From: a virus | IMG/VR virus record: IMGVR_UViG_3300017971_000604 | Location: 1-32,601 of that record | Direction: 5' to 3' (one strand) | Length of the DNA stretch: 32,601 nt | Shown here: piece by piece, positions 28,774 through 32,601 of the stretch | How positions within the stretch are numbered: the stretch's first letter is position 1 | How the letters are laid out: each line of letters begins with the position of its first letter | Notes under the pieces: model-generated | The model's database searches: none | Seen by the model: the letters and a program-made list of their open reading frames with translations, nothing else | What the model was told of the DNA's origin: nothing | Program-made: the position numbers and the translations under genes

Positions 28774-29175
28774 ATGTCGAATCGATGGATCGTCTTGGTC
28801 CTGGTCGCAGCGGTCGTGCTGCTGCCGGGAGCCACGTGCCTGCACATGATGGACACCGCCGCTGGCGTGGACGCCGAGGGGAATCCGACCGGCACCGCGC
28901 CGCTGGAGTCGGTCGGGTCCGTCGGACGGCTGCTCGGCATCCCGTTCGCCGGCGAGGCGGCGGGTGCGCTTTGCGCGCTCTGGGCTCTGATCCGGGGACG
29001 CCGGTGGAAGTCGCTCGCAAATGCCGGATTCGAGGCGGTGAACACGGTCAGAAATGCGGCGGACGGACTGGACGCCGCGACCATCAAGGTTTTGCTCGAC
29101 CGGCTCGCCAAAGAGCAGGACAAGGCGGGGCTCCGGACGATGGCGGTGAAGGCTATCGAAAAAATCGAGTCGTAA
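28774..29175 (+). CDS. Membrane protein with signal-like N-terminus, 133 aa (holin candidate)
   Basis: AAGGAGAA precedes the ATG. The N-terminus WIVLVLVAAVVLLPGATCLH is a signal peptide or membrane helix; the following Cys at 22 is not in a good lipobox because Thr precedes it. A second hydrophobic stretch (GIPFAGEAAGALCALWALI) is followed by the basic RGRRWK. The C-terminal half is helical (IKVLLDRLAKEQDKAGL). Two membrane segments and the position next to another small membrane protein fit a class II holin, but this is not diagnostic. A strong terminator follows directly. Confidence 0.55.
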   Translation: MSNRWIVLVLVAAVVLLPGATCLHMMDTAAGVDAEGNPTGTAPLESVGSVGRLLGIPFAGEAAGALCALWALIRGRRWKSLANAGFEAVNTVRNAADGLDAATIKVLLDRLAKEQDKAGLRTMAVKAIEKIES

Positions 29176-29194
29176 TCTCATATTCTCCTTTCAT

Positions 29195-29223
29195 GGTGGC
29201 CTCCTGCGGAGGCCACCTTTTTT
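29195..29223 (+). terminator. Perfect rho-independent terminator
   Basis: A 10-bp stem without mismatch pairs 29195-29204 with 29208-29217 around the loop TGC and is followed by TTTTTT (29218-29223). It begins about 20 bases after the stop of the 28774 gene and probably ends the structural transcript. Confidence 0.93.
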
Positions 29224-29268
29224 GCAGGGCCGTGAAAAGTTGATCGGCCTCGCGGGACGAATTTTCCC

Positions 29269-29297
29269 TCGACACGCCCTGAAAAAGCGTGTAGGCT
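29269..29297 (+). promoter_or_regulatory. Promoter-like site for the small-gene region
   Basis: TCGACA (29269-29274) and TAGGCT (29292-29297) are separated by 17 bases. AAAAAGCGTG, a repeat found twice more nearby, lies in the spacer at 29282-29291, directly before the -10. A repressor bound there would block transcription. Confidence 0.55.
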
Positions 29298-29326
29298 GTC
29301 CCAGACCCATCCTAGCGGAGGTGCCC

Positions 29327-29530
29327 ATGCCCGGCAGACGCGGCGGACGCCATGAGATCCGGATCGACCTCGAGGAGAGAGCCTGCGAGACGTGTGGGCA
29401 GGTGTACCGGCCCCGGCGGGTCCGGCAGCGGTTTTGCGGCCCCCTCTGCCGCTACCGGGCCGCCAGAGCCAGCCGCAAAGCGACAAAAAACGTCACTTCT
29501 GTCGCATTTTGCGACAGAAGGCGCGTCTAA
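29327..29530 (+). CDS. Small zinc-finger-like protein, 67 aa
   Basis: The start at ATG 29327 is chosen because GGAG at 29317-29320 fits it; an in-frame GTG six bases earlier is too close. The product is basic, with Cys20-x2-Cys23 and Cys37-x3-Cys41 (ACETCGQVYRPRRVRQRFCG then PLCRYRAARA). This treble-clef-like short zinc finger pattern is common in phage proteins and bacterial zinc-ribbon proteins. It probably binds nucleic acid. A perfect 11-bp inverted repeat is embedded in its final codons. It could be a regulator of the local operators, which is a guess. Confidence 0.7.
   Translation: MPGRRGGRHEIRIDLEERACETCGQVYRPRRVRQRFCGPLCRYRAARASRKATKNVTSVAFCDRRRV
29496..29520. repeat. Perfect 11-bp inverted repeat at gene end
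   Basis: CTTCTGTCGCA (29496-29506), the spacer TTT, then TGCGACAGAAG (29510-29520). There is no T-tract, so it is a poor terminator. A dimeric DNA-binding protein could recognise it, or it may stabilise the mRNA end. Confidence 0.8.
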
Positions 29531-29565
29531 CTCCTTGGCACGTCGAGACTAATGGGTTTCGCGGA

Positions 29566-29582
29566 TTGACAGGAATTGTCAA
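29566..29582. repeat. TTGACA palindrome, operator-like
   Basis: TTGACA (29566-29571) and TGTCAA (29577-29582) are separated by GGAAT. The left half is a perfect -35 hexamer, but no TAGNNT lies 16-18 bases downstream. It may be an operator. Confidence 0.6.
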
Positions 29583-29583
29583 C

Positions 29584-29647
29584 AAAAAGCGTGTATGGGG
29601 GGCCATAAATCGCGGTTTCCCGCGCGTATGTGCATGGCACGCTTTTT
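29584..29647. repeat. 10-bp inverted repeat AAAAAGCGTG with 44-base spacing
   Basis: AAAAAGCGTG lies at 29584-29593 and its reverse complement at 29638-29647. A third direct copy is inside the promoter-like site at 29282-29291. This stretch of the gene-free interval 29531-29707 looks regulatory. No tRNA or small ORF was seen in it. Confidence 0.65.
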
Positions 29648-29662
29648 GCTCCTAAATAGAGC

Positions 29663-29673
29663 GTGAGACGCGC
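29663..29673 (+). repeat. Leader motif GTGAGACGCGC, copy 1
   Basis: GTGAGACGCGC sits 34 bases before the start codon at 29708. It is followed by an ACAACCC-type stretch (29679-) resembling that after copy 2, then GAGGAGGAGCC and ATG. Confidence 0.6.
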
Positions 29674-29707
29674 AAAGACAACCCTGACCGACAACCGAGG
29701 AGGAGCC

Positions 29708-29905
29708 ATGCAGACGACACAGACCGAGCGGATCATCAAGGCGGGCACCACGCCCAACGGGACGCACGGGACGCTGGTGGAGATCACCTACAGCGGCTAC
29801 AAGCTGATCCCCACCGTGCGGTATGAGTGCCGCACGGATGACGGCCGGGCGCAAAAAATCCCCGCCGACCAGCTGGATCGAGTGCTGGCGATGATCCGCG
29901 AGTAA
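29708..29905 (+). CDS. Hypothetical small protein, 65 aa
   Basis: ATG 29708 follows GAGGAGGAG. A longer in-frame start at 29663 is less likely because it would translate the leader repeat. The product is a compact beta-rich protein: IIKAGTTPNGTHGTLVEITY, KLIPTVRYECRTDDGR, then a short helix. It resembles small phage proteins with SH3-like or ribbon folds, without specific match. The following gene shares the leader type, so the two are probably co-regulated. Confidence 0.65.
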   Translation: MQTTQTERIIKAGTTPNGTHGTLVEITYSGYKLIPTVRYECRTDDGRAQKIPADQLDRVLAMIRE

Positions 29906-29920
29906 CCGCGCCCCTCGTAC

Positions 29921-29941
29921 CCCCCTCCCGCGCGGAGGGGG
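29921..29941 (+). repeat. C-rich hairpin, related to the 30369 and 30733 hairpins
   Basis: CCCCCTCC (29921-29928) pairs with GGAGGGGG (29934-29941) around CGCGC. A related hairpin with the sequence CCCCCTC/GAGGGGG occurs in each copy of the 81-bp repeat. It follows the 29708 gene but has no T-tract. Confidence 0.65.
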
Positions 29942-29945
29942 AGAC

Positions 29946-30013
29946 GTGAGACGCGCATACACAACCCGGCCCGATGACCCCCGCCCCGGCGCGACCCAAC
30001 CCCGCGCGTCTCA
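29946..30013. repeat. Leader motif GTGAGACGCGC, copies 2 and 3 as an inverted pair
   Basis: GTGAGACGCGC at 29946-29956 and its reverse complement at 30003-30013 flank a C-rich 46-base stretch in the leader of the gene at 30075. The 29906-30074 interval holds this and the hairpin at 29921-29941, and no gene. Confidence 0.65.
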
Positions 30014-30074
30014 CACCCTCGCTCTCACGGGCGAGCGGGGCGGGGATCAGCGGGCCGTAACCACAGGAGGAGCC

Positions 30075-30356
30075 ATGTCAGACATCAGCATCGGGACTCA
30101 GTGGGACGCGGCCATGCGCCGCCGCAGGATCATCACGACTGCTCGCGCGTGCGCCACCAGGGCATGGGACCAGCGGACCATCGACAGCGAGGATCGGATC
30201 ATAGTCGCCCCGCAGATCGAGGGCGGCGACTGGGACGCGCTCGCGGAGGCTGCCCCGGACATGACCCGCGAGGAGATCGAGATGGCCGAACAGATGTACG
30301 CCGAGCGCATGGACTACTATCGCGCCACGGCAGGGTACGAGCCCTGCGAGGACTAG
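30075..30356 (+). CDS. Hypothetical acidic protein, 93 aa
   Basis: ATG 30075 follows AGGAGGAG, nearly the same ribosome binding site as the 29708 gene; the in-frame start at 29946 would translate the leader. The product starts SDISIGTQWDAAMRRRRI and ends in an acidic helix (DMTREEIEMAEQMYAERMDY). It resembles small early phage proteins without known domains. Its TAG stop is the first codon of an 81-bp repeat. Confidence 0.6.
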   Translation: MSDISIGTQWDAAMRRRRIITTARACATRAWDQRTIDSEDRIIVAPQIEGGDWDALAEAAPDMTREEIEMAEQMYAERMDYYRATAGYEPCED

Positions 30357-30434
30357 TCCCCGCCGCACCCCCCTCTGCGGAGGGGGAGGCGATGAGGACA
30401 GCCCGGCGGCCTATTCCGCCGGGCGAAAGGAGGA
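30354..30434 (+). repeat. 81-bp perfect direct repeat, copy 1, with hairpin leader
   Basis: Identical over all 81 bases to 30718-30798. It holds a stop codon (TAG), a C-rich hairpin (30369-30375 with 30380-30386), a 9-bp hairpin GCCCGGCGG/CCGCCGGGC (30401-30409 with 30416-30424) with a 6-base loop, and AAAGGAGG at 30426-30433. The next gene starts 5 bases later at 30439, so this is a mobile or duplicated leader cassette. Confidence 0.92.
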
Positions 30435-30442
30435 CACGATGA
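30392..30442 (+). CDS. Possible 16-aa leader peptide
   Basis: Within the first repeat copy, GGAGGGGGAG precedes ATG 30392 and a 16-codon frame rich in Arg and Pro (RRPIPPGERR) ends at TGA 30440-30442, overlapping the ATG of the 30439 gene (ATGA). In the second copy the same peptide start runs on in a long frame instead. It could couple translation through the hairpin, or be chance. Confidence 0.3.
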   Translation: MRTARRPIPPGERRTR

Positions 30443-30633
30443 TCGTCACCAAGCAGACGGTACAGCGGTGGATACGGGCCGACGAGGCCCGCGAGGTGGG
30501 GATGACCAGCGGAGGCGCTCGCTGGCCCGACTGGCCCCGCTACGTGATCGTGGAGCATGTGGCCCGACAGCTCACATACCACTATCCCGCGACTCCTCGG
30601 GACGAGGATCGGCTTGCGGGGCGGGAGGCGTAA
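30439..30633 (+). CDS. Hypothetical small protein, 64 aa
   Basis: AAAGGAGG lies 5 bases upstream within the first repeat. The product is basic and aromatic: a helix (VTKQTVQRWIRADEAREVGM) and then WPDWPRYVIVEHVARQLTYH. The Trp/Arg composition suggests nucleic-acid binding, but no family is recognised. The leader hairpin suggests regulated translation. Confidence 0.6.
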   Translation: MIVTKQTVQRWIRADEAREVGMTSGGARWPDWPRYVIVEHVARQLTYHYPATPRDEDRLAGREA

Positions 30634-30637
30634 GGAC

Positions 30638-30666
30638 GCCCGGCATGGGGTCGGGCGAAGGGAGGG
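30638..30666 (+). promoter_or_regulatory. Hairpin plus ribosome-binding-site leader
   Basis: GCCCG (30638-30642) pairs with CGGGC (30652-30656) around a 9-base loop, followed by GAAGGGAGGG (30657-30666). It is a weaker relative of the 81-bp repeat leader and lies before the 16-codon frame at 30670. Confidence 0.55.
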
Positions 30667-30669
30667 TAC

Positions 30670-30720
30670 ATGGCGTGGGAGTCGGTAGACGATTACTGGA
30701 CGGCGATGAGGCAGAGGTAG
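30670..30720 (+). CDS. Putative 16-aa micropeptide
   Basis: ATG 30670 follows GGGAGGG. The product is MAWESVDDYWTAMRQR, and its TAG stop is the first codon of the second 81-bp repeat. It occupies the place of a normal gene in the leader-gene-leader pattern, so it is either a true micropeptide or a shortened remnant of a gene. Confidence 0.35.
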   Translation: MAWESVDDYWTAMRQR

Positions 30721-30798
30721 TCCCCGCCGCACCCCCCTCTGCGGAGGGGGAGGCGATGAGGACAGCCCGGCGGCCTATTCCGCCGGGCGAAAGGAGGA
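30718..30798 (+). repeat. 81-bp perfect direct repeat, copy 2, with hairpin leader
   Basis: Same 81 bases as 30354-30434, offset 364 bp. Its ribosome binding site (30790-30797) serves the ASCH gene at 30802, 4 bases later. Perfect identity indicates recent duplication or active gene conversion. Confidence 0.92.
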
Positions 30799-30801
30799 TC
30801 G

Positions 30802-31125
30802 ATGAAAACCCTGTGGTTCCGCGGCTGTTTCCGCGCCGCGATCCTGCGCGGCGAAAAGACCGACACGATCCGGATGACGTGTCGGCTGCGCGAGGGCGAG
30901 CATGTCGCGCTGTCCGTGGGTCCGCGACCCGCTTTCGCGCGGGCCCGCGTCACGCGTATCACGCGCGTCACGCTCGCGGACCTCTGCGCCGAGCGCCGCG
31001 CGCAGGTGCTCGCGTGCTATCCCGATCTCGGCCCTGCGGCCCTCGTTTGGAGGATCGAATTTGAGCTCGTCGAAAATGTCCCAGCGGATGATCCCGCTCT
31101 CGCGCCTGCGGGCGCTCAGGCGTAA
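30802..31125 (+). CDS. ASCH-domain protein, 107 aa
   Basis: The N-terminal half shows FRAAILRGEKTDTIR at about 10-24, the Gly-x-Lys-x-x-Thr-x-Arg signature of ASCH domains, then GEHVALSVG and an ARVTRITRV strand. ASCH domains are beta-barrels related to PUA and bind RNA; some act as RNA or nucleoside hydrolases. The catalytic character is unknown. The ribosome binding site comes from the second 81-bp repeat. It overlaps the ParB-like gene by 65 bases, so translation is likely coupled. Confidence 0.75.
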   Translation: MKTLWFRGCFRAAILRGEKTDTIRMTCRLREGEHVALSVGPRPAFARARVTRITRVTLADLCAERRAQVLACYPDLGPAALVWRIEFELVENVPADDPALAPAGAQA

Positions 31126-31606
31126 CCCGCAGTATCTCTCCGAGCGGCAGATGACGGCGCTGGTCGCCTCGATCAGGCGCGACGGCTTCCTGGCGCCCGT
31201 GCTGGTGCGCCCGATGCGCGGCGCGCGCGACGAGTACGAGATCGTCAGCGGCAATCACCGTGTGCTGGCGGCGCGCGAGGCGGGGCTGGAGTCCGTCCCG
31301 TGCGTCGTCGCCAATCTCTCGGCGAAAGCGGCGGCGCGAATCGCCGTGAACCTAAACACGATCCACGGCGACCCGAACGCGGAACTCCTCGCGCCGTTTC
31401 TCGCCGAGCTGTCCAACGACGTGCTCGGCACGATCCACCTGGAGGCCGATCTGCTGTCGAGTCTCCGGGAGTTTGACGCGACGCTGAAGCTCCGGCTGGA
31501 CGAGCTGGAGCCGCCGGACGCGCTCGATCGGGATTCGCCGGCCAGCAATATCACGCTGTGCGTCTGCCCGACATGCGGCAAGCGTCACATGAAGGGCGGA
31601 AAATGA
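31061..31606 (+). CDS. ParB-like nuclease-domain protein, 181 aa
   Basis: TTG 31061 is chosen because GGAGG at 31049-31053 fits it; ATG 31076 has no such site. The product shows the ParB N-terminal pattern: IPLSRLRALRRNP, then QMTALVASIRRDGFLAPVLV, then EIVSGNHRVLAAREAG with GNHR at about 64-67, then SVPCVVANL. Phage proteins with this domain act as DNA-binding, nuclease or modification-related proteins; partition is unlikely as no ParA is present. The C-terminus ends in a half zinc-ribbon (CVCPTCGKRH). It ends in an ATGA overlap with the GNAT gene. Confidence 0.82.
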   Translation: MSSSKMSQRMIPLSRLRALRRNPQYLSERQMTALVASIRRDGFLAPVLVRPMRGARDEYEIVSGNHRVLAAREAGLESVPCVVANLSAKAAARIAVNLNTIHGDPNAELLAPFLAELSNDVLGTIHLEADLLSSLREFDATLKLRLDELEPPDALDRDSPASNITLCVCPTCGKRHMKGGK

Positions 31607-32142
31607 TCTGCGACTGTGCGACACGACTGGACGCGAGGCAGGGCCGACAGGGCGAGTATCGGCGGCTCAAGAAGGCGCTGAATCGTGGCCAACACCCCAC
31701 CTACATCGGCCCGAATATGGTCGAGCACTGCGCCCGCAACGGCGGCCTCTGGTTTTTCCGCTGCGGCGAGACGGACGCGGCAGTCGCGCTGGTCAACCCG
31801 CGACTCAGCGTGCTGCTCACGCTCAACGTCCTGCCCGAGCATCGCAGTCACGGACTCGGCGCGGCGATCATGCGCTACCTCGCGCCGAACTGGATCCGTT
31901 CCACGGAATCGGCGGTCCCGTATTTCCGGCGCCAGGGCTATCAGGTGATCGGCCGGCCCAAGCGGGGCCGCACTCTGCGCACGATCCTGCTCGTGCGCGC
32001 CGATCTGCTGACGCTGGCCGGGCGCGTGAGCCGGATTTTTGGCGAAGAGGAGGGGCGAGGTGATGGTGACTCCGGCGGCGATAGGGCTGCCGGAAAAGGA
32101 GAATCACATGACAAAACTCGCGGCGCGGTATCCCGGAGATGA
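31603..32142 (+). CDS. GNAT-family acetyltransferase-like protein, 179 aa
   Basis: ATG 31603 overlaps the ParB-like stop (ATGA). The core strand-turn-helix LLTLNVLPEHRSHGLGAAIM carries Arg81-x-x-Gly-x-Gly, the acetyl-CoA pyrophosphate binding site of GNAT enzymes. It is followed by AVPYFRRQGYQVIGRPKRGR, a late strand pair of the fold. A basic N-terminal region (QGEYRRLKKALNRGQ) precedes the domain. The last 26 residues have shadow-like composition where the next gene begins. Phage acetyltransferases may modify DNA bases, small molecules or host proteins; nothing here decides which. Confidence 0.75.
   Translation: MICDCATRLDARQGRQGEYRRLKKALNRGQHPTYIGPNMVEHCARNGGLWFFRCGETDAAVALVNPRLSVLLTLNVLPEHRSHGLGAAIMRYLAPNWIRSTESAVPYFRRQGYQVIGRPKRGRTLRTILLVRADLLTLAGRVSRIFGEEEGRGDGDSGGDRAAGKGESHDKTRGAVSRR
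32072..32101 (+). promoter_or_regulatory. Hairpin plus ribosome-binding-site leader
   Basis: CCGGCGGC (32072-32079) pairs with GCTGCCGG (32086-32093), one G-U pair, with a 6-base loop, followed by AAAAGGAG (32094-32101). The loop size and the spacing to the ribosome binding site match the 81-bp repeat leaders, supporting ATG 32108 as the start. Confidence 0.65.
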
Positions 32143-32578
32143 TGGCGTCACGGTGGACGAGACCTGGTGGGCGGCCACCCAGACCCTCGACGGAGTAATC
32201 TACCATCGCCACCCCCACGGGGGCGGCTGGGTCGCGGAGACGGCGCAGGTGGCCGAGTCTGCGTTTGTTGGGTTTACCGCGCGGGTGTACGGCAACGCGC
32301 ACGTGTCCGGCAACGCGCAGGTGTATGGCAGCGCGCGGGTGTCCGGCAGCGCGCAGGTGTATGGCAGCGCGCGGGTGTCCGGCAGCGCGCGGGTGTCCGG
32401 CAACGCGCACGTGTCCGGCAACGCGCAGGTGTACGGCAACGCGCAGGTGTCCGGCAACGCGTGGGTGTCCGGCAACGCGTGGGTGTACGACAACGCGTGG
32501 GTGTCCGGCAACGCGCGAGTGTCCGGCAACGCGCACGTGTCCGGCAGCGCGCGGGTGTCTGGCGGCGACCTGACCTAG
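32108..32578 (+). CDS. Hexapeptide-repeat (left-handed beta-helix) protein, 156 aa
   Basis: The protein has a short N-terminal region (KLAARYPGDDGVTVDETWWA), then WVAETAQVAESAFVG, then about 15 six-residue repeats of the form V-S/Y-G-N/S-A-x. This [LIV]-G-x4-like periodicity is the hexapeptide pattern of left-handed parallel beta-helices, as in YdcK-like proteins and acyltransferases. Here no catalytic His loop is seen, so a structural or binding role, possibly a fibre or polymer-forming protein, is more likely. ATG 32063 is an alternative start with GAGGAGG upstream, but the hairpin leader favours 32108. The last 23 bases of the window hold no gene. Confidence 0.7.
   Translation: MTKLAARYPGDDGVTVDETWWAATQTLDGVIYHRHPHGGGWVAETAQVAESAFVGFTARVYGNAHVSGNAQVYGSARVSGSAQVYGSARVSGSARVSGNAHVSGNAQVYGNAQVSGNAWVSGNAWVYDNAWVSGNARVSGNAHVSGSARVSGGDLT
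32285..32554 (+). repeat. Tandem 18-bp repeat, 15 units, coding
   Basis: Fifteen units of GTG-T(C/A)(C/T)-GGC-(A/G)(G/A)C-GCG-NNN run without interruption; most differences fall in the second, fourth and sixth codons. The units are so similar that recombination or slippage could readily change their number. Confidence 0.9.
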
Positions 32579-32601
32579 TCCACTCTCTCTCTATATCCGC
32601 C

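Follow-up and report, generated by a model that had tools for sequence, protein, structure and literature searches.

Intergenic cassettes are already known in other phages. In the early mRNA of phage T7, RNase III processes long, imperfect hairpins that lie between the cistrons and close to the ribosome-binding site downstream, and the PeSLs of the T4-type phages were reportedly treated by Arbiol et al. in 2010. In the outline given in PMC4503421, a PeSL consists of an early promoter and a terminator-type stem-loop. The cluster K mycobacteriophages possess 11-19 SAS elements per genome, about half of which are extended, i.e., ESAS (Pope et al. 2011, PMC3203893). The ESAS carries a 17-bp imperfect inverted repeat, with a spacer mostly of 4-13, just upstream of the start-associated SD-like repeat; according to its authors, the departures observed in the repeats generally do not support RNA pairing (PMC3203893).

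The cassette described in the present study resembles these elements, the nearest being the cluster K ESAS and the T4-type PeSLs, and falls outside the definitions of both. It occurs in a single IMG/VR record of an uncultured virus (IMGVR_UViG_3300017971_000604), the 32,601 bases of which were analysed in full and are referred to below as the window. Tailed-phage genes (TerS, TerL, portal and head protein) are found in the window, the GC content of which is 60-68%, such that strong hairpins arise easily. The coordinates of the two cassette copies, their hairpins and their neighbouring genes are collected in Table 1.

Table 1. Cassette copies, hairpins, SD sequences and adjacent genes in the window (hp1, post-stop hairpin; hp2, SD-abutting hairpin; hp1', diverged third hp1)
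Feature	Position	Strand	Characteristics
hp1'	29907-29955	+	just 3' of the TAA of gene 29708-29905; z -3.0
Large hairpin 3' of hp1', before the SD of gene 30075	29967-30057	+	22-nt arms, 91% complementary; z -4.9
Gene upstream of copy 1	30075-30356	+	93 aa, no family match
81-nt cassette, copy 1	30354-30434	+	TAG stop of ORF 30075-30356 through SD of gene 30439; fold z -4.9
hp1, copy 1	30356-30399	+	post-stop; CCCCCTC/GAGGGGG 7-bp stem, UGCG loop; pair table, z -4.4
hp2, copy 1	30401-30424	+	GCCCGGCGG-CCTATT-CCGCCGGGC; 9-bp GC stem, 6-base loop, abuts SD
SD GAAAGGAGG, copy 1	30425-30433	+	predicted unpaired 0.92
Gene downstream of copy 1	30439-30633	+	64 aa, no family match
hp2-like hairpin	30637-30657	+	CGCCCGGC-ATGGG-GTCGGGCG; abuts AAGGGAGG of the 16-codon ORF; z -3.3
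16-codon ORF MAWESVDDYWTAMRQR between copies	30670-30720	+	putative; no significant similarity to neighbours
81-nt cassette, copy 2	30718-30798	+	TAG of 16-codon ORF through SD of ASCH-like gene 30802; fold z -4.6
hp1, copy 2	30720-30763	+	identical to copy 1
hp2, copy 2	30765-30788	+	identical to copy 1
SD GAAAGGAGG, copy 2	30789-30797	+	predicted unpaired 0.61-0.90, depending on the context folded
ASCH-like gene downstream of copy 2	30802-31125	+	107 aa; Pfam ASCH E 0.018, below curated cut-off
hp2-like hairpin	32071-32094	+	TCCGGCGGC-GATAGG-GCTGCCGGA; against AAAGGAG of YdcK-solenoid-like gene; z -4.7

The original prediction described two copies, offset by 364 bp and identical over 81 bases, and both values proved exact (81/81; 364 from start to start). 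By comparison, when the entire window was dinucleotide-shuffled ten times, the longest exact repeats were of 15-18 bases, and the longest of the window's own, once copy 2 and two tandem arrays were set aside, is 18. The edges of the repeat likewise coincide with gene ends as originally proposed: identity opens at the T of the TAG stop in both copies and closes at GGAGGA in the SD region, 3-4 bases before the ATG (the sequence continues as CACGATG into gene 30439 after copy 1, and as TCGATG into gene 30802 after copy 2). The flanks of both copies are unrelated immediately on either side, and only the spacer, not the neighbouring genes, has been duplicated. The repeat is thus supported as a separate unit between genes that comprises a stop, two hairpins and an SD, and its perfect identity reflects recent copying or maintained identity.

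The order in each copy is TAG, hp1, hp2 and GAAAGGAGG. The hairpins and ribosome binding site that had been read from the sequence were confirmed by folding, with a minimum free energy of -52.3 kcal/mol for each copy, which exceeds that of dinucleotide shuffles (see Table 1 for z values). The hp1 hairpin is long and imperfect: below its 7-bp stem are a 2x2 internal loop, 3 bp (CGC/GCG) and interrupted outer pairs. The minus strand of the cassette folds about equally strongly (z -4.6), such that energy alone cannot tell RNA from DNA.

Folded with 100 nt of 5' context, the SD is predicted to be unpaired at 0.92 in copy 1 and 0.64 in copy 2, the median over 18 other starts being 0.435. At copy 1 the same value of 0.92 is obtained without hp2, and a requirement of this hairpin for SD access is therefore unsupported there. 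In the case of gene 30075, where hp1' and the large hairpin precede the SD, the predicted unpaired value is 0.30, and the SD is thus not predicted to be accessible.

It had also been proposed that the cassette brings regulation to whatever gene lies downstream. Such a role is conjectural. Neither a T-tract terminator nor a sigma-70-like promoter was found in the cassette. The scan that finds the late terminator at 29195 reveals no T-tract after hp1 or hp2, and the cassette was rejected as a terminator for this reason; a scan limited to sigma-70-type promoters gave none in 29000-32601, cassettes included. Accordingly, neither the early promoter (as a sigma-70 type) nor the terminator stem-loop of the PeSLs, as outlined in the source cited above, has a counterpart in the cassette. 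No Rfam family matched above its gathering score in the whole window. Other signals lie upstream. A strong intrinsic terminator (29195-29223; 10-bp stem and TTTTTT) closes the late genes. At 29635-29649 (plus strand), upstream of gene 29708, there is an exact sigma-54 promoter consensus, TGGCAC-N5-TTGC, the only match when up to one mismatch is allowed; shuffles lead to an expectation of about 1.3 near-matches and, as estimated from this figure, about 0.04 exact ones. A 35-nt imperfect repeat (83%, beginning CGTGAGACGCGCA..) occurs at 29662-29696, near the expected transcript start from the sigma-54-like site, and again at 29945-29979, where it overlaps the 3' arm of hp1'.

Small ORFans are located between and around the cassette copies. 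The 16-codon ORF, i.e., the "gene before" copy 2, is uncertain as a gene, having no independent support, and its similarity to gene 30075, of which it might be a truncated paralogue, was not significant (p 0.24). A short leader ORF in copy 1 (ATG at 30392, its stop overlapping the ATG of gene 30439) was also rejected: the corresponding frame of copy 2 runs on to 31064, rendering a conserved leader peptide unlikely. The ASCH-like gene is linked to ParB-like and GNAT-like genes, both here and in relatives (by tblastn). The ASCH-ParB and ParB-GNAT gene pairs overlap and lack a cassette-type spacer; the spacer is present where adjacent genes do not overlap. The ASCH-like/ParB-like/GNAT-like cluster (30802-32142) recurs in many otherwise different viral contigs, with ParB mostly at 49-60%, and adjoins the terminase in some of them. 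Tandem repeats occur at both ends of the window, namely an Ala-rich array at 208-393 inside ORF 34-480, and 18-nt repeats at 32108-32578 encoding a solenoid protein (Pfam B_solenoid_ydck, E 1.2e-19).

Selection on RNA structure, which the original prediction offered as one explanation of the identity, finds some evidence within the genome, namely a compensating pair in hp1' and unlike hairpins placed against other SDs. The hp1' hairpin aligns to hp1 with a score of 35 (at most 30 in 1000 shuffles) and shares its overall topology. Within the alignable stem there is a single difference from hp1: in the inner lower part, the pair C-G (30366/30389) is replaced by the compensating pair T-A (29918/29944). 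In addition, hp1' has a longer loop, and its four outer pairs are changed in sequence with pairing kept. The apparent compensation is one double change between two distinct sequences only.

Hairpins of 8-9 bp abut two further SDs (30637-30657 and 32071-32094), the first of which is similar to hp2 in sequence (p 0.003). The second probably lies within the 3' end of the GNAT reading frame and is for this reason weaker evidence. Altogether, a hairpin of at least 8 bp abuts 4 of the approximately 51 SD-start candidates that the window contains, and these four are confined to its right end (the script returned 52 candidates and five hits, two of which share one SD). The four are not independent, since two of them belong to the identical cassette. 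The background for such hairpins is 0.5% of positions window-wide and 1.5% at the right end, the latter figure including these hits. The loops CCTATT (30401-30424) and GATAGG (32071-32094) share a 5-base reverse complement (CCTAT/ATAGG), which on sequence grounds would allow a loop-loop contact or an inverted palindrome.

Like the ESAS, which is nearest in position, the cassette is a repeated intergenic element at translation starts among the non-structural genes of a tailed phage, with an inverted repeat immediately upstream of an SD-like repeat. The 13-bp SAS consensus GGGATAGGAGCCC has no match at up to two mismatches in the whole window. The arms of hp2 are 9 bp as opposed to 17 in the ESAS, whereas its 6-nt loop is within the ESAS spacer range and it lies 0 nt from GAAAGGAGG. 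ESAS elements are present in many copies across the non-structural half of the genome; the cassette has two identical copies, and the other SD-abutting hairpins differ in sequence. The cassette also adds a post-stop hairpin, and changes between repeats support RNA pairing at hp1, as opposed to the general finding in ESAS. Like the PeSLs and the HGTV-1 motif (PMC3950731), insofar as these sources outline them, it is a stem-loop intergenic unit found repeatedly among small variable genes, the shuffling of which it may mediate. The T7 RNase III sites offer a further analogy, in that the cassette hairpin would likewise be long, imperfect, intercistronic and near the downstream ribosome-binding site; unlike those sites, the cassette has two hairpins in succession.

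Beyond this genome, exact and gapped pattern scans of IMG/VR with the cassette core, hp2 plus SD, and hp1 gave no match, and BLASTN of the region and the cassette against phages and plasmids returned only two matches of 26-30 bases (E 0.6-0.7). Relatives were reached through ParB, TerL and the major-head/protease protein. Among the relatives reached through ParB, mostly at 49-60% identity, the ASCH-ParB-GNAT synteny is often retained, and the regions upstream are without the cassette. The cassette is also absent from two structural relatives, L013 (a 10.5-kb fragment) and L014. In the full 54.9-kb record of a GC-rich relative (G004) there is no repeated spacer, and its few hairpin-SD pairs occur at roughly the background rate. 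Among the genomes searched, the cassette is therefore carried by one only.

The reading that we tentatively prefer, and would place slightly short of probable, is that the repeat is an RNA element situated between the cistrons of a polycistronic phage transcript; specific to this lineage and copied as a whole spacer, it would insulate or stabilise the cistrons and present the SD. This reading is favoured because terminator and sigma-70-like promoter are lacking, the cassette SDs are predicted to be accessible and the overlapping genes have no spacer. The whole spacer would have been duplicated recently, or its identity kept by gene conversion. The hp2 hairpin would confine the GC-rich RNA upstream to a local structure, leaving GAAAGGAGG single-stranded, and each cistron might thereby be translated independently. 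Following the stop, hp1 would protect or separate the 3' end of the preceding cistron, and may, by analogy with T7 early mRNA, be a processing site for a double-strand endonuclease of the RNase III type. Alternatively, the identity at gene borders may be mainly a trace of, or a substrate for, gene shuffling, identical spacers bounding the small genes that are exchanged; the hairpins would then be secondary. The coincidence of repeat edges with gene ends, the unrelated flanks, the small ORFans and the duplication of the spacer alone all fit such a recombination linker, but the compensated third hp1 and the recurrent SD-abutting hairpins are left unexplained, and no relative with an exchanged gene was found; we regard this explanation as somewhat unlikely.

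Palindromes acting at the DNA level, as protein-binding operators or promoters of the kind proposed for ESAS rather than as RNA structures, would account for the equal folding of both strands and for the ATAGG that the loop at 32071 shares with the reverse complement of the hp2 loop, like a palindrome in opposite orientation. The hairpins nevertheless hold a constant position relative to the SD on the coding strand, their stems vary between sites, unlike a fixed operator, and a sigma-70-like promoter is lacking, which together make a DNA site unlikely. A recent neutral duplication in a GC-rich genome, the hairpins of which are ordinary for its composition, would be in keeping with the restriction of the cassette to a single genome of 60-68% GC and its absence from the relatives found, yet is rendered quite improbable by folding that exceeds dinucleotide shuffles and by the third hp1 copy with its compensation. 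That the duplication arose in assembly is conceivable for a metagenomic contig known from a single uncultured IMG/VR record, but the two copies have different flanks with genes running on at either side, and the diverged third hp1 indicates that the element is genuinely multi-copy; an assembly duplication is therefore scarcely credible.

A further, distinctly improbable proposal may be formulated, whereby the module joins the 3'-end hairpin of one gene to the SD-presenting hairpin of the next and is copied as a unit, such that inserted small genes would become independently translated and processed cistrons. Such a phage spacer would be of a new kind. Should the module function as proposed, newly acquired small genes that have no promoter themselves would be supplied by the phage with ready-made translation and mRNA ends. 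If true, it would also constitute a start-associated hairpin element with compensation at the RNA level, unlike the ESAS, where such compensation is unsupported.
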